Source: Polynucleobacter sp. MG-5-Ahmo-C2
GTDB taxonomy: Bacteria; Pseudomonadota; Gammaproteobacteria; Burkholderiales; Burkholderiaceae
Length of the DNA: 64,000 nt
Assembly (NCBI RefSeq): GCF_018687735.1
Contig: NZ_CP061304.1
Location: forward strand, 248,001 to 312,000
Reading direction: 5' to 3'
The notes beneath the pieces are model-generated. The model was not told where the DNA came from and did not search any database. It saw only the letters and a program-made list of their open reading frames with translations. Below, one piece after another: positions 53,507-64,000 of the stretch. Every line of letters begins with the position of its first letter. Positions within the stretch are counted from its first letter, which is position 1. The position numbers were made by a program, and so were the translations under genes.

Positions 53507-54625
53507 TTGAGTAACAGATTAAAGGGATTTATAGCCATATGGTGGAGTTTTTGGATTGCTGCGGCATATTTAAATACAAGTTTAAGTATATCGAACCTTG
53601 CTACAGCTTTGGTAACATTCTCAATGGTTTTATTTCTAGTTGGGTGGTCATTATCAGAAAATTTAAAATTTAAGAAGTTACCAAAAGAAAAATACTTTTA
53701 TTTAAATGTGGAAATAATATTGCTTTATATTATTTTAATACAGATAGTAATGTCAATTTTTTCATTAACATATTCTTTAAATAATCCAGGAGCCTTGCGT
53801 GATATTGCTTACAGCAACCCGGTAGAAATATATAAAAATCAATACATATTGCAAATATATACCCTCTTAGTTTATCCAATTGGACTGTATGGTATCGCGT
53901 CAATTAATTTCTTTAGCTCAACAACATATAAAAATGGTTTAATTTTATTATTCTTTATTTTTGATACTTTAATTACATTAGGTAGATTATCAATTTATAT
54001 TTTTTTTATTTATATTTTAATAAACGCAATTATTATAAACAAAAAACTTATTTATAAAAAAATAGCATTTTTATTTATTATAGCAAATATTATAATGTAT
54101 ATTCTATTTAATTATAGATATACTAATGAGCTGAATATATCCCTAGAAAATTATATTGAATACTTAGAAACGTCAGTTTTTAACTATCATATAATTGGAT
54201 TTAAAATTTTTGATGAATTTATTAATGGTAATTTAATCTTCAACAGTGAATCTCTTCTTACATTTGGTTTTTATGAGTATATAGTCAGTAAATTTTATTC
54301 AATTTTTATACCAACGGTAAGTAATTGGGCAAAATTTGGCGAGGTGCTACAGGGATTTGTTATACAAATTGAGGGCGGAACTTATAATGCTCTCTCAACA
54401 ATTTTTTTACCTTACTATATTGATTTTGGAATAATTGGACCACCTGCTTTCTTATTTATTTTTGGATCCATCATAGGTTTTGGTATTAATCGAACTGGCA
54501 ATGTAACCCCATTAGGTATTTTAATATTAATTTTGGTCATCACTGGAATGTTGCAGTCTACAACAATTGGACAATTGTTGTATATACCATTGATATTAAT
54601 TTTATTTGGAATTAGATTAAGATGA
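53507..54625 (+). CDS. Putative oligosaccharide repeat-unit polymerase (Wzy-like)
   Basis: A 372-aa integral membrane protein, with about ten hydrophobic segments and an Ile/Leu/Asn/Tyr-rich composition. The late segment LQGFVIQIEGGTYNALSTIFLPYYIDFGIIGPPAFLFIFGSIIGFGINR looks like the C-terminal region of Wzy-type O-antigen polymerases (extracytoplasmic loop, then FG-x-x-G helices). The start is TTG at 53507 with AAGGA five bases upstream, so the start is well supported. Wzy proteins diverge so much that the call rests on topology. Overlaps the next gene by 4 bp. Confidence 0.6.
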   Translation: MSNRLKGFIAIWWSFWIAAAYLNTSLSISNLATALVTFSMVLFLVGWSLSENLKFKKLPKEKYFYLNVEIILLYIILIQIVMSIFSLTYSLNNPGALRDIAYSNPVEIYKNQYILQIYTLLVYPIGLYGIASINFFSSTTYKNGLILLFFIFDTLITLGRLSIYIFFIYILINAIIINKKLIYKKIAFLFIIANIIMYILFNYRYTNELNISLENYIEYLETSVFNYHIIGFKIFDEFINGNLIFNSESLLTFGFYEYIVSKFYSIFIPTVSNWAKFGEVLQGFVIQIEGGTYNALSTIFLPYYIDFGIIGPPAFLFIFGSIIGFGINRTGNVTPLGILILILVITGMLQSTTIGQLLYIPLILILFGIRLR

Positions 54626-56211
54626 CCAACTCAAATAAAATGTTAGATTTTTTAATTTTAATAATAATTTTAAACATATTATTATTATCAATATTTTCAA
54701 ACCATTGGGGTTATGATGAATTTGCGGCGGTTTCCAGCCATCTTGAACTTTCAAATTATATTTATATAGATGAGTATAAAAAATATTTAACAAATATAGG
54801 TATTAGTAATGAATATATTGTTGAAATAATTATTAATTACTTACTTCCAATCATTATAGTACCATTGAGATGGACTTATGCAATCGGAATTAGTCCTTGG
54901 CTGAGTATATCAAATTATATAGGTATAGATTGGCCGTATTTAAGGCCAATTTTAATGCTTCCATATGTATTTTTAATTTACTTAGGTTTAATTTTAATTA
55001 AAAAAACATTAGTTGATATTGTTAATTCAATTGCAATTGCAATTTTCTTTATACTGATTTTTTGTTCGGGTCCGTTTCTATATTGGACAAATACTTTAAC
55101 ATCCTATTCTCATCACATTTTTGTCTTTGGAATTATCTTATATAGCGTTCTTAAGTGCGATTTTAATGGCCATATATTTAATAAAAAGAGTATTTTACTT
55201 GCAATAGTCCCTTTATTCAATTATCAATATATTTTTATCATATGTGCATTAGGTTTATATGATTGGCTAAAGGATATTAAATCCAAAAAATTCTTATTTA
55301 TAGTCAAAAGTTGGGTTTTGTCAATAATTACATGTTTTTCATCAGTTATATTTCTTGTATTTCGTTCAATAATTTCCGGCAAACACCAAGATCCTGCATT
55401 TGCATCTTTAAATGAATTTGAACTCAGCATATATTCTATTCCTTCAAATTTTAAATTTTCAATTGATTTTTTTGATTACGTGATTTCAATATATATTAAT
55501 ATATTATTTTCATTTTACAAAAATAATATTTATAATTTTACAAATTATGGAATAGTTTTTAGTACTTTATTTTTTATATTAATGGTTTCTATTGCCTATA
55601 TTAATTGGAATATTAGTAAAAAACTTACAAGTATTCTACTTTTAATAATTGGTACAACTTTATTGCTACAATTTTTAGGTCTACTGCATGTTGCGCCCAA
55701 GAGGCATCAATTAGTTTTATTTTTACCTGTAGCTCTTTTATTTTCGATATATTTTTCAAAATTTTTCATTAAATATTTGGCTTATAATCAAATATATTAT
55801 ATAATATTTATTGTACTAACATTATCTATGGTATTTAAAATAAATACATTTTCATTTGCAGAAAATAGTTTTCCTAAAGATTACATAAAACCTTATTTAG
55901 ATAAGGAGGGTGTTGAGCGTTTGGTATTGAATAAATGTGACTATGAACCTATTTTATATAAAGATCTTAGAGTTGCCTATAAACCAATTTATAGGTGTGG
56001 ACCCAGGGTGGTTGAAAAGTTGCCTCCTAATGTCAACACAATAGCGGTTTGGTCATCGTTTCCTATAAATGCAAATAGCGCATTAGACATCATTGGTGAC
56101 TATTCAGGCTCAAAATGGAGTCTAATCTCCCCTCTGCAGCTTGATCTTAATCGGGACTGCAGCTCTTGTAGTAGATTGTGGATCGCAAAATTAATACTTG
56201 AAAATAAATAA
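54622..56211 (+). CDS. Polytopic membrane protein, possible GT-C glycosyltransferase
   Basis: A 529-aa AT-rich gene. The protein has ten or more hydrophobic helices up to about residue 415 and a soluble C-terminal domain (~420-529) with five cysteines (CDYEP, RCGPR, RDCSSCSRLW). An acidic motif (NHWGYDEFAAV, residues ~27-37) follows the first helix, where GT-C enzymes such as the GT39 and ArnT families have their catalytic Asp/Glu. I do not recognise the family with certainty. It starts in an ATGA overlap with the Wzy-like gene. Confidence 0.5.
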   Translation: MTNSNKMLDFLILIIILNILLLSIFSNHWGYDEFAAVSSHLELSNYIYIDEYKKYLTNIGISNEYIVEIIINYLLPIIIVPLRWTYAIGISPWLSISNYIGIDWPYLRPILMLPYVFLIYLGLILIKKTLVDIVNSIAIAIFFILIFCSGPFLYWTNTLTSYSHHIFVFGIILYSVLKCDFNGHIFNKKSILLAIVPLFNYQYIFIICALGLYDWLKDIKSKKFLFIVKSWVLSIITCFSSVIFLVFRSIISGKHQDPAFASLNEFELSIYSIPSNFKFSIDFFDYVISIYINILFSFYKNNIYNFTNYGIVFSTLFFILMVSIAYINWNISKKLTSILLLIIGTTLLLQFLGLLHVAPKRHQLVLFLPVALLFSIYFSKFFIKYLAYNQIYYIIFIVLTLSMVFKINTFSFAENSFPKDYIKPYLDKEGVERLVLNKCDYEPILYKDLRVAYKPIYRCGPRVVEKLPPNVNTIAVWSSFPINANSALDIIGDYSGSKWSLISPLQLDLNRDCSSCSRLWIAKLILENK

Positions 56212-56216
56212 TATAT

Positions 56217-57956
56217 ATGCAGATCGTTATTCCAATGTCTGGCTTTGGTGAGCGCTTTCGACGCGCTGGTTATGTTATTCCTAAGCCCCTAATTGAGGTT
56301 GATGGTAAGCCCATTATCGGTCATGTGATTGATCTATTTCCAGGCGAGACCGATTTCACATTTATTTGCAATGAAGATCACTTAGCGAATACCGACTACC
56401 GCATCGAGCAAATTCTGAAGAATTTGTGCCCTACTGGTCGTATTGTTAGCATTCCGGCACATAAGCTTGGCCCTATCTATGCTGTGCGCCAAATAGAACA
56501 TCTATTAGACCCAACTCGCCCTGTATTAGTTAATTACTGCGATTTCACCTGCTATTGGGATTGGGATCACTTCAAAGTGTTTGTCGCTCAAACACAATGT
56601 GCTGGCGCCATTCCTGCATATAAAGGCTTTCATCCCCATACTCTTGGCACCACCAACTATGCCTATATGAAAGAGGTGTCCAGCACCATTCCCGGCAAAG
56701 AAAGTGGCTGGTTATTGGATATTCAAGAAAAGCAGCCCTTTACTGACAATCGCATGGAAGAATACGCCTCTAGCGGAACGTATTACTTTGCTAGTGCCAA
56801 GATCATGAGTGATGCGTTTGAGCAAACCATGGATCAGAATCTCAATATTGGCGGGGAGTTCTATGTCAGCTTAGCTTATAAACCCATGCTGGCCCAAGGT
56901 AAAAAAATTGCTGTGTATCCGCTACAGCACTTTATGCAATGGGGAACACCAGATGACTTGGAGGAATACAACGCTTGGTCAAATACTTTTAAGAGATTAT
57001 TACATTCTGAGCAAGTAAGTAAGCCTGCTGGTTCACTGATTATTCCAATGGCGGGTATGGGAAAGCGCTTTGTAGAAGAAGGTTACACCCTCGCTAAACC
57101 GCTCATCCCAGTCTTTGGTAAAGCAATGGTGATTCAGGCCATTGATGATTTACCCAAAGCACAATACAAGTCAGTCATTTTGCGAGCTGATATGCCAGGC
57201 TTGGCTGATATCGAAACGTCGATCAAACAGCAATTTCCCAATTCGATTCTGACGCGCGTTCCTGGCGTGACCGAAGGGCAAGCTTGTACTGCGCTCATTG
57301 GTCTAGATGCGCTAGAAAGCCATATGTCTAAAGCCGATACCCAATTAGCTAACGGCGCTCTTGAGCCCATTACACCTATAAATCCAATCACCTTTGGGGC
57401 CTGTGATAACGGCGCACTCTTTGATCAGAGTGCCTATGAAGCACTGTTAGGCAATCCCGAAGTAGATGTCATCGTCTGGGGTGTGCGTGGTCATATCAAT
57501 GCGGTGCGTAAGCCGCAGATGTTTGGTTGGATTGATGCAGATGCTCATGGCTTGATTGCGAACATCTCTGTCAAAACCCCTTTAGCCTTACCAGCAACAG
57601 ACCCGATCGTGATTGGCACTTTTACCTTTAAAAACGCTGGTGATGCACGGCGGGCAATCGATACGCTGATTGCGCGTAATGGGCGGATTAATGGCGAGTT
57701 CTACTTAGACTCATGTATTAATGATGCGATTGCCTTGGGTCTGCGTTGTTATCTACTGGAAGTCGATAGCTTTATATCTTGGGGCACCCCAAACGATCTC
57801 AAGACCTTTGAGTACTGGCAGTCTTGCTTTCATAAATGGCCTCATCACCCCTATCGACTTGAAAATGATCTTCGAGTTAATGTGAATGCTTTAGAACTTC
57901 TGAATCAAAGGTATTCTCCAAGAATTCCACGGATGCCGATTATGCAAGCGGAATGA
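56217..57956 (+). CDS. Tandem two-domain sugar nucleotidyltransferase-like protein
   Basis: A 579-aa protein with two nucleotidyltransferase domains head to tail. Domain 1 starts MQIVIPMSGFGERFRRAGYVIPKPLIEVDGKPI (residues 1-33, K23), with a NYCDF metal site near residue 103 and FMQWGTPDDLEEY near 240. Domain 2 starts near residue 273 (SLIIPMAGMGKRFVEEGYTLAKPLIPVFGKAM) and ends with SFISWGTPNDLKTF near 520-533. Each repeat ends in the same W/SWGTPxDL element, so this is an internal duplication. The second domain has LAKPL where PKPL is normal and GACDNGALF in place of the metal site. It probably makes one nucleotide-activated building block for the operon; substrate unknown. GC is normal, unlike the preceding island. 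Confidence 0.75.
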   Translation: MQIVIPMSGFGERFRRAGYVIPKPLIEVDGKPIIGHVIDLFPGETDFTFICNEDHLANTDYRIEQILKNLCPTGRIVSIPAHKLGPIYAVRQIEHLLDPTRPVLVNYCDFTCYWDWDHFKVFVAQTQCAGAIPAYKGFHPHTLGTTNYAYMKEVSSTIPGKESGWLLDIQEKQPFTDNRMEEYASSGTYYFASAKIMSDAFEQTMDQNLNIGGEFYVSLAYKPMLAQGKKIAVYPLQHFMQWGTPDDLEEYNAWSNTFKRLLHSEQVSKPAGSLIIPMAGMGKRFVEEGYTLAKPLIPVFGKAMVIQAIDDLPKAQYKSVILRADMPGLADIETSIKQQFPNSILTRVPGVTEGQACTALIGLDALESHMSKADTQLANGALEPITPINPITFGACDNGALFDQSAYEALLGNPEVDVIVWGVRGHINAVRKPQMFGWIDADAHGLIANISVKTPLALPATDPIVIGTFTFKNAGDARRAIDTLIARNGRINGEFYLDSCINDAIALGLRCYLLEVDSFISWGTPNDLKTFEYWQSCFHKWPHHPYRLENDLRVNVNALELLNQRYSPRIPRMPIMQAE

Positions 57957-57957
57957 A

Positions 57958-58344
57958 ATGGCAAAGGGATTGGGGAGATATTTATTTATAGGGGCTGGAT
58001 CGAATATATTAAATTTTGCTTTTTATTTCATTTTCTTTTCAGTTGGCATGTCCCTGTTTTTAGCTTCAACAATAGGCTATTTAATCGGCCTATTTTTTTC
58101 TTATCATTTTGGGCGAACTTGGGTTTTTGATGAACGGTTTGATATTAGAATGAAAAATGTAATTAGTTTTGCTTTGGTGTATGCAATTGGCGGGGTGGGT
58201 ATGAGTCTAATAATTGAGGTTATGAATAAAAAAGTAGGTTTAGACTTTCAGATAAGTTGGATCTTTGGTGCAGTCTTTGCTGTAGTAAATAATTTCCTCG
58301 GATTAAAATTTTTTGTATTCAATGGGATAAAAAATGGCAAGTAA
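57958..58344 (+). CDS. GtrA-like small membrane protein
   Basis: A 128-aa protein with four transmembrane helices and the GtrA pattern: FLFIGAGSNILNFAFYFIFF, SYHFGRTWVF (positively charged turn) and the final FAVVNNFLGLKFFVF. GtrA proteins are thought to flip polyprenyl-phosphate-linked sugars across the inner membrane in Gtr glucosylation clusters. It begins one base after the tandem nucleotidyltransferase and overlaps the next gene by 11 bp. Confidence 0.85.
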   Translation: MAKGLGRYLFIGAGSNILNFAFYFIFFSVGMSLFLASTIGYLIGLFFSYHFGRTWVFDERFDIRMKNVISFALVYAIGGVGMSLIIEVMNKKVGLDFQISWIFGAVFAVVNNFLGLKFFVFNGIKNGK

Positions 58345-59047
58345 ATTTGGATTTATTTCAAAACTAGAATTCCTTCAGGATTGGGCCTCAGCAATTATTG
58401 CCGGCTTAAATCCTGCAATTGTTCATAATTTAGAAAAGTATCATGTGTTGAAAAAAGTGCACTACCTTTCTGCGATTGAAAATATTGAGGGTGATTATCT
58501 TGAATTCGGGGTTTTTACTGGAAGCTCCTTTTGTCACTCGATCCGTTGTTGTAAAAAATTGGCAAAGATAAACCCAAATACACTTAAAACAAAATTTTTT
58601 GGTTTTGACTCATTTTCAGGATTTGGAGACTTAAATGAGGATGACGAGCACCCCTTCTATACCGATGAAAATTTTTCTACCAGCCTCTCGGCTGTTAATA
58701 ATCGCGTGCAGCGTATAGCGCAAGGTATTGAATTTAAATTGATTCCTGGCTTTTTTAGTGATTCTTTAAAAGTCGGATCCCATCGGATGGGAATAGATAA
58801 ATCACGTATCATTTTTATTGATAGTGATACTTACTCAAGCGCTAATGAGGCGCTTGCATTTTGCATTCCAACCTTGCAAGAGGGCACCTTTATTGTACTC
58901 GATGATTATTATTCTTATCGAGGAAGTGAAGCTCGAGGTGTGGCGCGAGCATTCAATGAGTTTGTTTCTCAAGGAGGAATAAATGTCAGACATGTGTTTA
59001 ATTACGGAATGGGTGGTGTGGTCTATGTTGTTTCAAAGAAAATATAA
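58334..59047 (+). CDS. TylF/macrocin-O-methyltransferase-family protein
   Basis: A 237-aa class I methyltransferase with LEFGVFTGSSFCHSIRCC (SAM site, ~57-74), FFGFDSFSGFGDLN, IIFIDSDTYSSANEALAF (metal-binding Asp) and TFIVLDDYYSYRGSEARGVARAFNEF. TylF-type enzymes are Mg-dependent sugar O-methyltransferases, so a methylated sugar is likely. The ATG at 58334 overlaps the GtrA-like stop by 11 bp; its last base is the first of the next ATG (59047). Confidence 0.82.
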   Translation: MASKFGFISKLEFLQDWASAIIAGLNPAIVHNLEKYHVLKKVHYLSAIENIEGDYLEFGVFTGSSFCHSIRCCKKLAKINPNTLKTKFFGFDSFSGFGDLNEDDEHPFYTDENFSTSLSAVNNRVQRIAQGIEFKLIPGFFSDSLKVGSHRMGIDKSRIIFIDSDTYSSANEALAFCIPTLQEGTFIVLDDYYSYRGSEARGVARAFNEFVSQGGINVRHVFNYGMGGVVYVVSKKI

Positions 59048-59745
59048 TGAAACTTTCATTGGTTATTCCTTGCTATAACGAAGAAGCCAATTTGCCATTG
59101 CTATTGGAGGCTTGTCAACCACTTCGATTGAATGGCGATATAGAAGTTATTATTGTAGACAATGGTTCGACAGATGGCACATCTGAGGTGCTTAAAAGAT
59201 TGCTTCCAAGTTATCCACACTGTCGTACTGTACGCGTGTCAGTTAATCAGGGTTATGGATTTGGTATTTTGTATGGATTAATGGCGGCTCAGGGGAACAT
59301 TCTTGCCTGGACGCATGCAGACCTGCAGACTGATCCCAAAGATGTCCTTAGATGTTTAGAGCTTTTTAATCGCTATGGAGAAACCATTTTTGTGAAAGGT
59401 AGGCGAATTAAGCGCCCGTTAACAGATGTTGCATTTACCGTGGGAATGAGCATCTTTGAAACTCTTTTGCTGCGCACCCGTTTATGGGACATCAACGCTC
59501 AACCCAATATATTCTCCAGGTCATTCTTTGAGAGTTGGGTAAATCCCCCGCATGATTTTTCCCTAGATTTGTATGTGTATTTCACAGCGCGCCATAAAGG
59601 CTTGCCGGTTTACCGCTTTCCCGTAGAATTTGGAGAGAGGGCCCATGGGGTCTCTCATTGGAATGTCAATTGGGCAGGAAAATGGAAATTTATCCGCAGA
59701 ACCATCGACTTTAGCTTTGAACTGAAAAAAAGGCTGTCTCAATGA
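59047..59745 (+). CDS. GT2-family glycosyltransferase (DPM1/GtrB-like)
   Basis: A 232-aa soluble GT-A enzyme beginning MKLSLVIPCYNEEANLPLLLEA, with VDNGSTDGT and the metal motif WTHADLQTDPKD. It lacks the C-terminal helices of larger GtrB proteins. The architecture fits a polyprenyl-phosphate sugar synthase that would load a sugar on the carrier for GtrA to flip. ATGA overlap with the next gene. Confidence 0.85.
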   Translation: MKLSLVIPCYNEEANLPLLLEACQPLRLNGDIEVIIVDNGSTDGTSEVLKRLLPSYPHCRTVRVSVNQGYGFGILYGLMAAQGNILAWTHADLQTDPKDVLRCLELFNRYGETIFVKGRRIKRPLTDVAFTVGMSIFETLLLRTRLWDINAQPNIFSRSFFESWVNPPHDFSLDLYVYFTARHKGLPVYRFPVEFGERAHGVSHWNVNWAGKWKFIRRTIDFSFELKKRLSQ

Positions 59746-60350
59746 AGTTCATTGCTCATCGGCGCAACACAATCGAAGAATTAAAGGCGACCCCAAGGGA
59801 TTTCGGTGTCGAGGTCGACGTTCGCTCTAATGATGGGAAGCTGATCATTCACCATGACCCCTTTGCTTCTGGGGAAGACTTTGAGGCATGGCTCAAGCAC
59901 TACCACCATGGCACCCTGATTCTCAATGTCAAAGAAGAAGGTCTAGAGGCCTGTTTAATTGAACTGATGCAGCAACACCACATCACAGATTATTTTTTCC
60001 TAGATCAATCCTTCCCGTTTCTGATTAAGTGGTCCAAGTTGGGTGAGCGCAACTGTGCTGTGCGCGTCTCCGAATTTGAGTCCATCGAAACTGCACTTAC
60101 CCTCGCCGGAAAAATTGACTGGGTCTGGGTTGACTGCTTTACCCACTTCCCGCTCACGGGTAACGATGCCAAGCGCTTGCTCGAGGCTGGCTTTAAGTTG
60201 TGCCTGGTTTCTCCAGAACTGCAGGGTCGCCCTGCTGAGGTGGAAATTCCCCTACTTGCCAATTTACTGCGTGAGTGCTCGATTAAGCCCGAAGCTATTT
60301 GCACAAAGCAACCTGAGCTCTGGAAAGAGCGCCTACAGAACGCCGTCTAA
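59742..60350 (+). CDS. GDPD/PI-PLC-like phosphodiesterase
   Basis: A 202-aa protein with FIAHRRNTIEELKATP, VEVDVRSNDGKLIIHHDPF and TLILNVKEEGLE. These match the HR, E-x-D and HHD metal/catalytic residues of glycerophosphodiester phosphodiesterases (TIM-barrel), in a version shorter than the usual 240-300 aa. No signal peptide, so it is probably cytoplasmic. It overlaps the GT2 gene by 4 bp and precedes the kinase fusion by 7 bp. The substrate in this cluster is unknown. Confidence 0.78.
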   Translation: MKFIAHRRNTIEELKATPRDFGVEVDVRSNDGKLIIHHDPFASGEDFEAWLKHYHHGTLILNVKEEGLEACLIELMQQHHITDYFFLDQSFPFLIKWSKLGERNCAVRVSEFESIETALTLAGKIDWVWVDCFTHFPLTGNDAKRLLEAGFKLCLVSPELQGRPAEVEIPLLANLLRECSIKPEAICTKQPELWKERLQNAV

Positions 60351-60357
60351 GTTACTG

Positions 60358-62436
60358 ATGAAAAAATTACTTGCCTACTGCCAAAGCCCCCTCTTTTTAA
60401 TAGGGCTTCTCCTGCGTTTAGCATTATTAGTGCTGGTGTTGCCCACACCCGTTGGTCAATGGTTTGTCCCGTTTCTGAGTAATAGCATCAGTACTTTTAG
60501 CTTAGATCCTTGGCAAGCATGGTTGAGTCAAGGAGGTGCCGCAGCCGCTTTTCCTTATGGCTATGCCATGTGGCTTTTTCTCTTGCCCTTTAGCTTGGTT
60601 TGTAAGTTACTTTCCATTCCCCTGGCCTATGGTTATGGCGCGAGTTTGATTGCCGCTGATTTTGGTTTGCTTTTAATCCTCCGTAAGTTACTCAATCCCA
60701 AAGACTGGGTCTTACTCGCAATCTACTGGCTCTCTCCGATTAGTCTCATTGCTAGCTACTGGCTGGGCTATAACGACATCATTCCGGTGTTTTTATTGAT
60801 GAGTGCGATTTACCTTCTCAGGGGTCAACGCTTGTTGTTCTCGGGCGTGGTGTTAGTAGCCGCTATCTCAGCAAAGCTCAGTATGATTTTGAGCTTGCCT
60901 TTCTTTCTGATTTATCTGTTTCATAATCGCAATCTTCGCCAAATTTTCAGTCAATATCTGGCTGGTCTCGCGCTTGGATTAGCAATTTTCTTCTTACCCT
61001 TTCTGTTCTCTCAAGCTGGTCTGAGCATGCTGGCGAATAACCCCGAAGTAGAAAAGATTTACCAGCTCTCGATTAGTCTAGTACGCAATACCTCAGTGTA
61101 TTTAGTGCCGCTGGCCTACTTGCTGATGCTCTATGCCGCTTGGAGAGTCAAGCGCATGAACTTTGAGCTCTTTAATGCCATCTTGGGCACGGCCTTTTTA
61201 TTGGTGGTGTTATTAACACCGGCTTCACCGGGTTGGTTTATCTGGATCTTGCCTTTACTCGTCTCTTATCAAGTATCCGGCGATCGGGCAGCCTTCTATA
61301 TCACCTCGATTTTTTCTGCGCTTTATGTCTTCAGCGCGCTGTTATTTGTGGGTAGCCAACAGATCGATTTAGTGATGCAGGCGTTAGGACTTCACGCTAA
61401 TGCAGGCCAACAGATCATTAATGCCGAGTGGATTAATTCTCGCCTAGCCTCACTCACCCATACAGCCTTAGTAGCCACAGGAATTGTTTTAGCCATTCGG
61501 ATTTGGCGCGAGACCGTGATTCGCAATGATTTCTTTCGCCTGAGTCGCAAGCCTTTTGTGATTGGTATTGCTGGCGACTCGGGCGCCGGCAAAGATACTT
61601 TTGCTAATGCTATTAGCGGCCTCTTTGGCTCCCACTCGGTGGCAGCTATTTCTGGGGATGACTATCACCTCTGGGATCGCCATCAACCAATGTGGCAAGT
61701 GATGACGCACATCAATCCAGCCGCAAATGATTTAGAGAGTTTTGCTAAAAATTTAGTTTCTCTTACAGATGGCAGATCAGTACAAGCCAGTCACTATGAC
61801 CACGATACCGGCAAGATGGGCAGGCCATTTACTATCCAAAGCAATGACATCATTATTGCTAGTGGACTGCATGCTCTCTATCTTCCTATCTTGCGCGAGT
61901 GTTATGACCTGAGCATTTACCTGGATATCGATGAAGGCTTACGTACCTACTTCAAGGTCCAAAGGGATGTAAATACACGCGGTTATACCATTGAGCGGGT
62001 GCTAAATGCCTTGGCAAAGCGCAAGCCTGATTCTGAGAAATTCATCAGACCTCAAGTCGCTTTTGCGGACTTGATTTTTAGTCTTCGCCCAATTAACCCA
62101 AGTGCTCTGAATAATGCCAATGAATCTAACCCACCACGTTTAAAACTGGTTGTCAAATCCCGTCATGGATTTAATGAGATTTCACTTAAAAGGGTGCTGA
62201 TAGGCGTCTGTGGCCTGCATGTGGATATGAACACTAATGCCGATGTCTCTGAAGTGGAACTCAGTATTGAGGGCGAAACCTCTGCTCAGGACATTCAAAT
62301 GGCTGCAAGGTTGATTTGCCCTCAAATCTTCGAGTTCTTGGATCTCCAGCCTCAATGGCAAAATGGGGTATTAGGTCTGATGCAGCTCATTACCATATCT
62401 CATATCAACCAAGCGCTGACTAGAAGATTTATATGA
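60358..62436 (+). CDS. GT-C-like membrane protein fused to a P-loop (uridine kinase/PRK-like) kinase
   Basis: A 692-aa fusion. Residues 1-~395 form about ten helices of a GT-C-like membrane enzyme (LALLVLVLPTPVGQWF, YWLSPISLIASYWLGYNDIIP, PGWFIWILPLLV); the GYND and NP-like patterns recall GT87-type polyprenol-dependent mannosyltransferases. Residues ~400-692 are a soluble kinase of the uridine kinase/phosphoribulokinase type: P-loop G406DSGAGKDT414 (Asp at the usual Ser/Thr position), ISGDDYHLWDRHQP, HYDHDTGKMG and ASGLHALY. ATG at 60358 follows the GDPD stop by 7 bp; upstream in-frame ATGs lie inside that gene. The fusion implies that glycan transfer and phosphorylation are linked. Overlaps the next gene by 4 bp. 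Confidence 0.78.
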   Translation: MKKLLAYCQSPLFLIGLLLRLALLVLVLPTPVGQWFVPFLSNSISTFSLDPWQAWLSQGGAAAAFPYGYAMWLFLLPFSLVCKLLSIPLAYGYGASLIAADFGLLLILRKLLNPKDWVLLAIYWLSPISLIASYWLGYNDIIPVFLLMSAIYLLRGQRLLFSGVVLVAAISAKLSMILSLPFFLIYLFHNRNLRQIFSQYLAGLALGLAIFFLPFLFSQAGLSMLANNPEVEKIYQLSISLVRNTSVYLVPLAYLLMLYAAWRVKRMNFELFNAILGTAFLLVVLLTPASPGWFIWILPLLVSYQVSGDRAAFYITSIFSALYVFSALLFVGSQQIDLVMQALGLHANAGQQIINAEWINSRLASLTHTALVATGIVLAIRIWRETVIRNDFFRLSRKPFVIGIAGDSGAGKDTFANAISGLFGSHSVAAISGDDYHLWDRHQPMWQVMTHINPAANDLESFAKNLVSLTDGRSVQASHYDHDTGKMGRPFTIQSNDIIIASGLHALYLPILRECYDLSIYLDIDEGLRTYFKVQRDVNTRGYTIERVLNALAKRKPDSEKFIRPQVAFADLIFSLRPINPSALNNANESNPPRLKLVVKSRHGFNEISLKRVLIGVCGLHVDMNTNADVSEVELSIEGETSAQDIQMAARLICPQIFEFLDLQPQWQNGVLGLMQLITISHINQALTRRFI

Positions 62437-63200
62437 TCCAAATTACCGACCAAAGTCGCTTTACGCGCTTACCTGATGCGGTGCTCTTTGATACCGATAA
62501 CACCCTTTACCCCTATGATCCAGCACATGCTGCCGCTCAGCAGGCGGTTAAAGAAAAAGTGATGAGTACCTTCTCGATTAGCGCAAAGGATTTTGATGTC
62601 GCCTTTAAAGAAGGGCGAAAACAAATTAAAACTCGCTTAGGTCATACCGCCTCATCGCATAGTCGTCTACTCTACTTACAGCGCATGTTAGAGATCATGG
62701 GGCTGGGATCCCAAGTGCTGCTGGCCTTGGATTTTGAGCAAACCTACTGGCGCACCTTCTTGGCTAATGCCATCCTCTTTGATGATGTAAAGGAGGTGCT
62801 AGACGACTTACGCCTACTTGGCATACCGACAGCAATCGTAACTGATCTGACAGCACAGATTCAGTTTCGTAAGGTGGTGTACTTTGGTCTAGATCATTAT
62901 TTCAATTTCATTGTAACCAGTGAGGAGGCGGGCTTTGATAAGCCCCATGAGGCCCCCTTTCAAATCGCTTTAGAGAAAATGCAACCTAAGGGCGACTGTA
63001 TTTGGATGGTTGGTGATAATCCCATTAACGATATTCGGGGGGGCAAAGAAAAGATCAATGCCGTCACACTACAAAAGGTACATGAAGGGGTAGAAATAGG
63101 GGAAGGACCTAATACTCCTGATGCGAATTTTAAGGAATTTAAAGAATTGCGACAACTGCTTGCAAAGCTCGCTAGTAATAAATTAGCCTCATATGGATAA
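62433..63200 (+). CDS. HAD-superfamily hydrolase
   Basis: A HAD-IA phosphatase-like protein of 255 aa, with motif I VLFDTDNTLYPYDP (D19, D21), motif II AIVTDLT, motif III Lys near FDKPHEAPF and motif IV WMVGDNPINDIRGG. The fold resembles pyrimidine 5'-nucleotidase or phosphoglycolate phosphatase relatives. It could remove a phosphate from a sugar or polyol phosphate made by the operon. Overlaps its neighbours by 4 and 8 bp, so it is tightly coupled. Confidence 0.85.
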   Translation: MIQITDQSRFTRLPDAVLFDTDNTLYPYDPAHAAAQQAVKEKVMSTFSISAKDFDVAFKEGRKQIKTRLGHTASSHSRLLYLQRMLEIMGLGSQVLLALDFEQTYWRTFLANAILFDDVKEVLDDLRLLGIPTAIVTDLTAQIQFRKVVYFGLDHYFNFIVTSEEAGFDKPHEAPFQIALEKMQPKGDCIWMVGDNPINDIRGGKEKINAVTLQKVHEGVEIGEGPNTPDANFKEFKELRQLLAKLASNKLASYG

Positions 63201-64000
63201 TAACCACAAAGCTATTAGTCAGTTTTGTGCCGATCTAGGTAAAGATCAATTACTAGTGCAAGGCGCCGGTGGAAATGTCTCCTGGAAAGAAAATGGAGTT
63301 CTTTGGGTAAAGGGGTCGGGCACATGGCTAGCTAATGCAGACAAGGAGAATATCTTTGTGCCGGTTGATTTATACCATCTGCAAAATGCCCTGTCTCAAG
63401 AAAACTTTGAAATTAAACCCCAAATATTAGGCGATCAGGAAAGGCAAAAACTCAGCCCTTCGATTGAAACTGTTTTGCATGCATTGATGCCGCAAAAAAT
63501 AGTAGTTCATCTACATGCCGTTGATGCACTCAGTTATTTAGTTGCGAAAGATTGTAAAAAATCACTGCAACAGCTCTTTATGTCCTCTGCCAATATGCAT
63601 CAAGTTATTAGCATCTTTGTTCCATATCGTAAGCCTGGCCCAGAATTAGCTCAAACTATTTATCAAACACTTCAAGCCAATACAGCTGCTAATGTTGTGC
63701 TTCTCAAAAATCATGGCATTGTGATTGGGGCAGAATCAATCGATGCAATTTATACGCTTCTTGAATCGATCAATACAATCTGTATCCCAAAACAGACACC
63801 ATCAAATACAAGTCACGCATTTCCCCACCATTTGAGCGTATCAGAGGAATATATCCCTTTTGCGGATGAGCAAGTGCAAGCACTAGCCCTTAATCCTGAT
63901 CTTTATAAGCGTTTGCACTCTGATTGGGTTTTATATCCGGACCATGCTGTATTTTTGGGTCCGAGAGCATTCACCTATGAATCTTGCCGGACTTTTGAGA
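63193..64000 (+). CDS. Class II aldolase/adducin-family protein (partial)
   Basis: The reading frame runs off the right edge with 269 codons visible. It has the class II aldolase features QGAGGNVSWK, the zinc His pair in VVHLHAVDALS and the downstream NHGIVIG; the adducin-like domain ends near residue 200 and an extra C-terminal region continues. Members cleave or form aldol bonds of phosphorylated sugars (fuculose-P, rhamnulose-P and similar). ATG at 63193 overlaps the HAD stop by 8 bp. It could supply or consume a short polyol or sugar phosphate used by the operon. Confidence 0.82.
   Translation, partial: MDNNHKAISQFCADLGKDQLLVQGAGGNVSWKENGVLWVKGSGTWLANADKENIFVPVDLYHLQNALSQENFEIKPQILGDQERQKLSPSIETVLHALMPQKIVVHLHAVDALSYLVAKDCKKSLQQLFMSSANMHQVISIFVPYRKPGPELAQTIYQTLQANTAANVVLLKNHGIVIGAESIDAIYTLLESINTICIPKQTPSNTSHAFPHHLSVSEEYIPFADEQVQALALNPDLYKRLHSDWVLYPDHAVFLGPRAFTYESCRTFE

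Follow-up and report, generated by a model that had tools for sequence, protein, structure and literature searches.

The window, the whole stretch of 64,000 nucleotides of Polynucleobacter sp. MG-5-Ahmo-C2 DNA that was analyzed, ends in a run of closely packed genes. An ORF check of the window recovered eight open reading frames, all on the + strand, at the positions listed below and in the compact arrangement of the preliminary description. The intergenic spacing, in order, was 1, -11, -1, -4, 7, -4, and -8 b, with a maximum gap of 7 b and a maximum overlap of 11 b. The locus counts in the list refer to 29 loci (28 distinct) that were fetched using the GT-C-kinase fusion, the window's own locus being kept apart. 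The eight genes and one upstream neighbor are as follows.

54622..56211, + strand: upstream membrane protein (529 aa; low G+C of 0.26; no family match)
56217..57956, + strand: NTP2, tandem nucleotidyltransferase (579 aa; GxGxR...KPL motif in each half; in 28/29 loci)
57958..58344, + strand: GtrA-family flippase candidate (128 aa; PF04138, 58 bits; profile match in 21/29 loci)
58334..59047, + strand: TylF-like O-methyltransferase (PF05711, 45 bits; optional insert; 3/29 loci)
59047..59745, + strand: GT2, candidate DPM/GtrB-like polyprenyl-phosphate glycosyltransferase (232 aa; PF00535, 90 bits)
59742..60350, + strand: candidate GDPD-like phosphodiesterase (202 aa; no Pfam match; 29/29 loci)
60358..62436, + strand: one fused protein with a GT-C membrane domain (about residues 1-390) and a phosphoribulokinase (PRK)-like domain (about residues 398-692)
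62433..63200, + strand: HAD phosphatase (Pfam HAD, 85 bits; 29/29 loci)
63193..64000, + strand: class II DHAP-type aldolase (PF00596, 72 bits; first 269 of 344 aa in the window; 29/29 loci)

The 529-aa membrane protein gene ends 5 b upstream of NTP2, and its product is possibly an acceptor-specific transferase, although this assignment is uncertain. The fusion gene probably starts at the ATG at 60358 (692 aa) rather than at an upstream GTG. The aldolase gene extends 228 b beyond the window end and is followed, after 64 b, by a gene for a 569-aa membrane protein.

Among the 29 fusion-fetched loci, the GDPD, HAD, and aldolase genes were present in 29, NTP2 and GT2 in 28, GtrA in 21, and TylF in 3, and the gene order was mostly kept. 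The conserved cassette comprises six or seven genes. TylF, which had been counted within the set, was rejected as a core member since it was present in only three of these loci; it is an optional insert, and its G+C content of 0.37 is below that of most core genes. No relatives with the transfer genes alone were found in the fetched loci. In a phylum-wide sample of 398 genomes that included the own genome, 7 had the GDPD (E<=1e-3) and 6 the tandem NTP (E<=1e-20), and each of these 6 had both; the tandem NTP match in G114 covered one half only. The co-occurrence yielded a one-sided Fisher p of 1.3e-12, or 7.5e-11 with the own genome removed, for genomes that are not phylogenetically independent. 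Moreover, divergence was correlated across 32 loci, with a rho of 0.92 for the GT-C-PRK fusion against HAD and of 0.58 for the lowest pair, and the Mantel test gave 0/999 permutations for each of the four pairs tested. At E<=0.001, the GDPD-like family contained 5,771 of 5,952 candidates, and the tandem NTP family 5,315 of the 8,000 candidates scored. The search for co-occurrence in relatives that the preliminary description had proposed was thus run, and the genes did co-occur. Its view of precursor and transfer genes as one set is supported by this co-occurrence, by the correlated divergence, and by joint carriage on phage contigs and plasmids.

The whole cassette is horizontally mobile. Two viral contigs carried a complete copy, L107 with portal, terminase, and scaffold genes next to it and L108 with repressor and spanin genes; the cassette was also located on Azospirillum and Hirschia plasmids. 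With the DNA of an Erwinia copy as the query, the cassette was found in 2 of 5,426 E. coli genomes, both times on plasmids and between IS26 copies; a serotype link in E. coli was therefore rejected. The hosts of the loci belong to five phyla, and the tree of the loci mixes these phyla, which indicates horizontal transfer. Cyanophage GDPD-like proteins were considered as forms of the cassette GDPD, but they scored only 3 and 5 bits against its profile and score support was absent.

The transfer genes support the Gtr-type logic (GtrA, GT2, and GT-C) that had been recognized at the outset. Gtr O-antigen glucosylation depends on GtrA, GtrB, and a serotype-specific GtrC and is classically phage-borne, phage carriage being common but not essential. 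The cassette resembles this system in its GtrA homologue, candidate DPM-like GT2, putative GT-C protein, single operon, and presence on phage contigs. In the GT2, the DPM-like HADLQ motif was strongly conserved. GtrB-type polyprenyl-phosphate glycosyltransferases carry C-terminal TM helices, whereas hydropathy indicated no TM helix in the cassette GT2. The cassette also departs from Gtr by joining its conserved GT-C to a kinase in one protein and by adding further proteins predicted to make the donor. The GT-C assignment rests on a sub-threshold ALG3 match, the only one given by Pfam for this half of the fusion, together with motifs. In 38 rows, the LDPW position was Asp in 32 and Asn in 5, while FPYG and the Asp of ND..P were each found in 37; in Gtr GT-C transferases, the catalytic acid lies in the first periplasmic loop. 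Hydropathy gave nine TM helices for the fusion protein, a count insufficient to place the kinase domain on either side of the membrane.

The kinase domain matched PF00485 (PRK) with 132 bits, above the cut-off of 22, and NCBIfam PRK07429 with 206 bits, below the cut-off of 236. As it scored 139 bits to a true PRK (PDB 6hzk) and 71 bits to uridine kinase, the uridine kinase label was rejected. The DDYH, WDR, YDH, K..RD, and R..D positions were each retained in at least 35 of 38 rows. The Mg/ATP residues of PRK are the Walker A GK[ST] and the Glu of EGLH; here, the Walker A Ser/Thr was replaced by Asp (GKD) in 36 rows and the Glu by Ser in 35, and thus the kinase mechanism or substrate may have shifted. 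A Calvin cycle role was rejected since no RuBisCO was found in the host genome, the control search being positive in 5/14. Compared with the Calvin-cycle phosphoribulokinase, the cassette kinase is alike in family and substrate-side motifs and different in its fusion to a membrane GT-C, its host without RuBisCO, and its Walker A and Glu substitutions.

Among the 23 NCBIfam models listed, the top match of the HAD was the haloarchaeal RuBP 5-phosphatase NF053830, with 171 bits against a cut-off of 330. The full aldolase protein scored 21 bits with the Ru1P aldolase NF053831, far below the cut-off of 300. In class II DHAP aldolases, the acid is the Glu of PSIE and the Zn ligands are HxH and the NHG His; these residues were strongly conserved in 34 rows. 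NTP2 was distantly related to cytidylyltransferase models. In the GDPD-like protein, H6, E24, D26, and H38 were invariant in 34 rows, and the canonical GDPD metal/catalytic motif is His/Glu/Asp/His; Asn62 occupied, in all rows, the place of the EIK-type Glu. According to the available excerpts of PMC9700705, the haloarchaeal non-carboxylating pentose bisphosphate pathway converts RuBP to Ru1P, the product of RuBP 5-phosphatase, which a FucA homologue cuts into DHAP and glycolaldehyde. The same excerpts describe a HAD of the RuBP phosphatase type next to a class II aldolase, as in the cassette, but there RuBP originates from ribose 1,5-bisphosphate during the use of nucleosides, whereas here a PRK-like kinase lies within a glycan cassette (PMC9700705).

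Overall, we consider it close to an even chance that the locus modifies surface glycans as a self-contained, horizontally mobile unit that follows Gtr logic and has its own donor pathway via pentulose phosphates. The low HAD and aldolase scores and the altered kinase residues weigh against this reading. We infer that the chemistry would be Ru5P to RuBP to Ru1P, feeding nucleotide activation, lipid loading, flipping, and periplasmic transfer. By family membership, the PRK-like domain would phosphorylate a ketopentose 5-phosphate, most likely the near-universal metabolite Ru5P, to the 1,5-bisphosphate, and the HAD would take off the 5-phosphate to give a ketopentose 1-phosphate able to close to a furanose. 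The aldolase may cleave, remake, or epimerize this product via DHAP and glycolaldehyde, the direction being speculative. Subsequently, NTP2 and the GDPD-like enzyme would generate the activated nucleotide donor. Because a ketose linked through its C1 phosphate cannot act as a glycosyl donor, this step requires a speculative migration, in which the GDPD would move that phosphate to the anomeric C2 by way of a 1,2-cyclic phosphate, with one nucleotidyl transfer before and one after. Judged again by family, the GT2 would load the unit onto polyprenyl phosphate, GtrA would flip the loaded lipid, and GT-C enzymes would attach the unit in the periplasm, namely, the conserved GT-C of the fusion and, in many cases, a variable neighbor that may fit the local acceptor.

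A more detailed version is doubtful as a whole: an RuBP route in RuBisCO-less organisms in which a so far undescribed activation by two nucleotidyl transfers around a 1-to-2 phosphate migration by the GDPD would yield a polyprenyl-linked ketopentofuranose and phage-spread seroconversion, with a related gene set doing the same for a hexulose. This second gene set also combines two NTP domains, a GDPD, and a HAD, often with a cupin. It had no match in E. coli to one DNA query, and equating its two single NTPs with the NTP2 halves was rejected as no clean one-to-one match was obtained.

Two variant loci add to the case for a cassette with its own donor pathway. In L098 (one genome), the GT-C motifs were lost and the DPM-like GT2 was missing, while PRK, HAD, aldolase, NTP2, and GDPD were kept. 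This one genome suggests that donor synthesis and transfer might be separate modules of the cassette, a reading weakened because L033 keeps the GT-C motifs though its fetched stretch contains neither GT2 nor NTP2, and because a GtrA candidate was undetected in 8/29 loci. In L070 (one genome), the kinase, HAD, and aldolase were replaced by unrelated enzymes, namely, a different, weakly matched P-loop kinase, an FBA-type aldolase, and a HAD-IIA, together with a ribulose-phosphate 3-epimerase. An extra multi-TM protein was observed near the cassette in 36/40 loci, a weak count because unrelated genes, such as that of the flippase-like protein of L098, were included.

It is unlikely that the cassette instead follows an ADP-heptose-like logic, whose heptose kinase, GmhB, and nucleotidyltransferase show the same order of enzyme types. 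The kinase would then take an aldopentose 5-phosphate (or hexose 6-phosphate) and phosphorylate its anomeric OH, the distal phosphate would be removed by the HAD, NTP2 would form an NDP-furanose, and the aldolase would be an AraD-like epimerase, consistent with the 4-epimerases included among class II aldolase models. The residue would be an ordinary or rare pentofuranose, and three-component pentofuranose addition is described as widespread in the excerpted text of PMC11127046. However, the kinase keeps the PRK-type substrate positions, L070 brings two ketose enzymes (ribulose-phosphate 3-epimerase and FBA-type aldolase), and the GDPD would be unexplained.

Unlikely, too, is a cleavage role for the kinase, HAD, and aldolase, in which Ru5P and ATP would give DHAP and glycolaldehyde and the C2 unit would enter the glycan or donor; that a FucA homologue cuts Ru1P, as excerpted from PMC9700705, agrees with it. 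The cassette type (Ru1P and a FucA/RhaD-like aldolase) and the L070 type would lead to one and the same overall reaction, their stereochemistry matching. In the L070 type, the 3-epimerase would produce Xu5P, followed by the FBA-type aldolase. Nevertheless, NTP2 and GDPD would be left unexplained, and we know of no cassette enzyme that uses glycolaldehyde and of no glycan with such a unit.

The preliminary description had suggested a phosphorylated or polyol-like unit. A phospho-polyol or other phosphodiester-linked group, with NTP2 making a CDP-polyol and the GDPD trimming or exchanging phosphodiesters, would suit the GDPD-like enzyme of all 29 loci and the distant cytidylyltransferase kinship of NTP2. 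It is nonetheless quite improbable: the polyol part is unsupported because the conserved set contains no reductase, the Pfam scan gave no TagF/Stealth-type phosphotransferase match, and GtrA, DPM-like GT2, and GT-C proteins move glycosyl units; the evidence points to pentulose-phosphate chemistry. Finally, central or salvage metabolism with incidental operon placement is hardly credible for the kinase, HAD, and aldolase, since the latter two resemble the haloarchaeal nucleoside-salvage pair but occur in every fusion-fetched locus, the phylum-wide sample shows NTP2 and GDPD together, and whole cassettes are carried by phage contigs and plasmids.

The favored reading, a glycan modification cassette with its own donor pathway, was compared with known glycan systems. 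In the available excerpts, the three-component pentofuranose system (Kelly et al. 2024, PMC11127046) similarly uses a polyprenyl-phosphate donor of a pentose-derived unit, a flippase, and a GT-C; it employs PRPP, a polyprenyl phosphoribose synthase, a MATE flippase, and GT136, whereas the Pfam scan of the eight cassette proteins gave no UbiA-type or MATE match. In the case of C. jejuni HS:1, one 849-aa protein (HS1.08) serves fructose activation and transfer according to the excerpts of PMC7901785 and PMC11924219; a ketofuranose side branch would be common to both, and the cassette differs as a multi-gene set. The excerpted gene list of the Y. enterocolitica O:10 locus (PMC11380512) contains no such set. 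That these ketofuranose glycans, as far as their genes could be viewed, are made in other ways counts against the favored reading. Accordingly, known xylulose/fructose loci were rejected as direct precedents on the excerpted gene lists of these two, E. coli O95, C. jejuni RM1221, and Devosia being left out of the comparison. A word search of the P. protegens O-antigen paper gave no mention of the cassette gene types, and no description of this gene combination was found in the open-access literature.

If the favored reading is right, the Gtr paradigm would be widened from borrowing a host nucleotide sugar to bringing the entire donor pathway along; this would account for the ability of one cassette to work in hosts of five phyla. 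RuBP-type chemistry would gain a role beyond carbon fixation and salvage. Moreover, the GDPD-like and tandem NTP families would be gene markers that could predict an unrecognized surface residue in uncharacterized glycans. Phages carrying the cassette may also alter the receptors available to other phages.

By ORF and domain calls, all eight genes listed in the preliminary description were found in the window as described, in a host genome consisting of a single contig of 1.82 Mb. They occupy 56217–64000 on the forward strand and encode a tandem nucleotidyltransferase (NTP2), a GtrA-like flippase, a TylF-like protein, a GT2, a GDPD-like enzyme, a GT-C membrane domain fused to a phosphoribulokinase-like kinase, a HAD phosphatase, and a class II aldolase. 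Neighbouring genes are separated by 1 or 7 b or overlap by 1–11 b. The start codon of the fusion gene is most likely ATG 60358. The aldolase gene ends 228 b beyond the window and is followed there by the gene for a 569-aa membrane protein. The cassette is real, conserved, mobile, and functionally coherent, while its residue and exact route are putative. It would work in the same manner as Gtr seroconversion, and it differs from the PRPP-based pentofuranose system (PMC11127046). No paper on this gene combination was found in the open-access literature. Upstream, two membrane genes (window 53507–56211) were probably acquired separately, since their G+C content is 26% vs 46% over the window's first 26 kb. 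Downstream of the window (L018:7884-11466), predicted heptose-type kinase, nucleotidyltransferase, isomerase, and HAD genes are followed, in the same polysaccharide locus, by a transaldolase-like gene.

To evaluate conservation, 29 loci were collected with the GT-C–kinase fusion as the sole query, and the cassette profiles were made from these same loci with score thresholds of our own choice. In the profile search, GDPD, HAD, and aldolase were present in all 29 loci, NTP2 and GT2 in 28, and GtrA in 21; neither NTP2 nor GT2 was detected within the fetched stretch of locus L033. TylF, which had been counted as a cassette member, occurred in only 3 of the 29 and was set aside as such. The usual order was NTP2-GtrA-GT2-GDPD-fusion-HAD-aldolase, with exceptions in which the aldolase preceded NTP2 (e.g., L038, L053, and L098), NTP2 lay on the opposite strand (L046), or extra genes were inserted inside the set (L028, L032, and L039). 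L028 and L049, which come from different contigs of a single Pseudomonas piscis assembly, were identical across 22,049 b, so that the second copy could be an artefact of assembly or the result of recent duplication. Hosts in the tree belonged to Pseudomonadota, Nitrospirota, Planctomycetota, Acidobacteriota, and Bdellovibrionota.

The preliminary description had also proposed checking whether the genes co-occur in other genomes, and this was borne out for GDPD and NTP2. Among 398 genomes drawn separately from the phylum, the host genome included, GDPD (E ≤ 1e-3) was found in 7; 6 of these, and no others, also had NTP2 (E ≤ 1e-20) (p = 1.3e-12, or 7.5e-11 with the host genome removed). The two genes lay on separate contigs in genome G157, and NTP2 was divergent in G114. 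Within the genus, GDPD matches occurred in 15 of 151 genomes, with identities of at least 60% in 7 (host included) and near 30% in 8. Moreover, pairwise distances of six core proteins were correlated across 32 loci (rho 0.58 to 0.92), and in each of the four pairs tested, 0 of 999 permutations gave a value as high as that observed; part of such correlation stems from shared vertical descent. L027, L036, L039, and L048 (split or partial) and L033 (incomplete) were dropped from this analysis, and the window's own locus, L049, L051, L070–L072, and L098 did not enter it.

Motifs of the fusion protein were examined in an alignment of 38 rows, among them the window's own copy, both of the identical P. 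piscis copies, and two copies from E. coli plasmids; 4 of 42 loci were dropped. The kinase domain scored 139 bits against true phosphoribulokinases vs 71 against uridine kinases, and DDYH, WDR, YDH, K..RD, and R..D, which we take to be positions with roles in phosphoribulokinase, were each retained in at least 35 of the 38 rows. This PRK-like P-loop kinase (window 60358–62436) also carries a conserved pair of changes: Walker A Ser/Thr to Asp (GK[ST] to GKD, 36/38 rows) and Glu to Ser in EGLH (SGLH, 35/38). In the case of the HAD, the top NCBIfam model was haloarchaeal ribulose 1,5-bisphosphate (RuBP) 5-phosphatase, with 171 bits (cut-off 330). According to PMC9700705, that enzyme in haloarchaea yields ribulose 1-phosphate (Ru1P), which a FucA homologue cuts to DHAP and glycolaldehyde. 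The cassette aldolase was closest to RhaD-type models (65 bits) and reached 21 bits with the Ru1P aldolase model, far under its cut-off of 300. RuBisCO was not found in the host genome.

In the proposed mechanism, the kinase would convert ribulose 5-phosphate to RuBP, the phosphatase would convert RuBP to Ru1P, and an aldolase rearrangement would follow. The product would then be activated with a nucleotide and loaded onto polyprenyl, and the linked unit would be flipped and transferred in the periplasm. The weakest link is the conversion of a ketose 1-phosphate to a glycosyl donor; speculatively, the GDPD-type enzyme could shift the phosphate to C2 via a cyclic phosphate, the two NTP halves acting on either side of this step. 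A pentulofuranose is a plausible product because D-xylulose is already known as a rare glycan residue (PMC8707391).

The strongest hint toward pentulose phosphates comes from the predicted replacement enzymes of the variant locus L070 (genome G114), because they would cover the same reaction types with unrelated enzymes plus a pentulose epimerase. L070 holds GDPD, a divergent tandem NTP, GT2, and TylF. Genome-wide, G114 gave zero matches to the cassette HAD and fusion, and its aldolase match was weak (36 bits, in a 695-aa frame away from L070). The positions of the cassette kinase, HAD, and aldolase are taken by a 1,293-aa protein (L070:5775-9656) and a HAD-IIA phosphatase. The 1,293-aa protein begins with a weakly matched P-loop kinase (about 19 bits) and further combines a class II FBA-type aldolase, at 32 bits against a cut-off of 25.5, with a ribulose-phosphate 3-epimerase, at 90 bits. 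At E ≤ 1e-30, the 1,293-aa protein was found in 1 of 299 genomes. Beside the variant, on the opposite strand (L070:12732-14516), lies a gene for a 594-aa protein with predicted choline-kinase-like and inositol-monophosphatase-like domains. In cyanophages S-SM2 and Bellamy, NTP2 (about 38%) is followed two genes further along by a class II aldolase (44 and 53 bits, respectively, with the cassette profile). A GT61 protein gene lies between the two in S-SM2, and Bellamy has a second nucleotidyltransferase fused to an RpiB/LacAB-type isomerase (L099:6776-7933; RpiB 111 bits).

In the GT-C half, the LDPW position was Asp in 32 and Asn in 5 of the 38 rows, and FPYG and the Asp of ND..P were each present in 37. 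Only L098 (genome G534) departs from this pattern: all three features are lost and the locus lacks a DPM-like GT2, the best GT2 match anywhere in G534 being 32 bits, yet the kinase motifs, NTP2, GDPD, HAD, and aldolase are retained. Thus, this single genome suggests that the cassette may be divided into one module for donor synthesis and another for transfer. GtrA was undetected in L098 by profile search, which says little because the profile also misses it in 8 of the 29 loci. L033 counts against the split, as its GT-C motifs are intact although its fetched stretch lacks GT2.

Mobility was indicated by two viral contigs with complete cassettes: L107, in which NTP2 runs off the end of the contig, and L108. 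The former cassette adjoins portal, terminase, and scaffold genes in a stretch with a 67.5% match to Burkholderia phages FLC5 and KS14; the latter lies between genes for a CI-like repressor (phrog_4) and a membrane protein of 665 aa, to one side, and genes for a tail fibre and an Rz-like spanin, to the other. Because of the repressor and P2-like genes, both phages would be temperate. The full fusion was found in 0 of 50,697 phage records. In E. coli, the cassette occurred in 2 of 5,426 genomes, in plasmid records of 33,455 and 32,571 b, and is flanked on both sides by IS26; of the four IS26 copies, one carries a frameshift according to its annotation. Of 72,556 plasmid records, 3 held at least 80% of the fusion, namely, the E. 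coli plasmid, Azospirillum brasilense, and Hirschia baltica. In the tree, made by a quick method with 8 of 29 inner branches open, the E. coli copy clusters with those from Crenobacter and Acidovorax, and the Spirobacillus copy with that from Pseudomonas piscis.

A second set of glycan-locus genes, with a distant GDPD (about 30% identity to that of the window), was found at the following positions:

L089:3181-6249, NTP, distant GDPD, beta-PGM-like HAD, NTP, small cupin
L092:8416-11443, NTP, GDPD, HAD, NTP, cupin
L093:7905-10974, NTP, GDPD, HAD, NTP, cupin
L094:5772-8822, NTP, GDPD, HAD, NTP, cupin
L110:6238-9388, NTP, GDPD, HAD, NTP, cupin

Two single NTPs are present in loci of the Polynucleobacter type and on a plasmid of P. 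aeruginosa, and one longer NTP protein, annotated there as GT2, in Azospirillum lipoferum and Rhizobium; a cupin is often included. Relatives occur on Pseudomonas, Azospirillum, and Rhizobium plasmids, whose NTP genes carry a GT2 annotation. The combination of GDPD, HAD, and two NTPs fits the idea of GDPD-mediated phosphate migration but does not prove it. In Rhizobium sp. L51/94 (L112:633-7642), the second set comes after genes resembling an erythritol catabolic operon.
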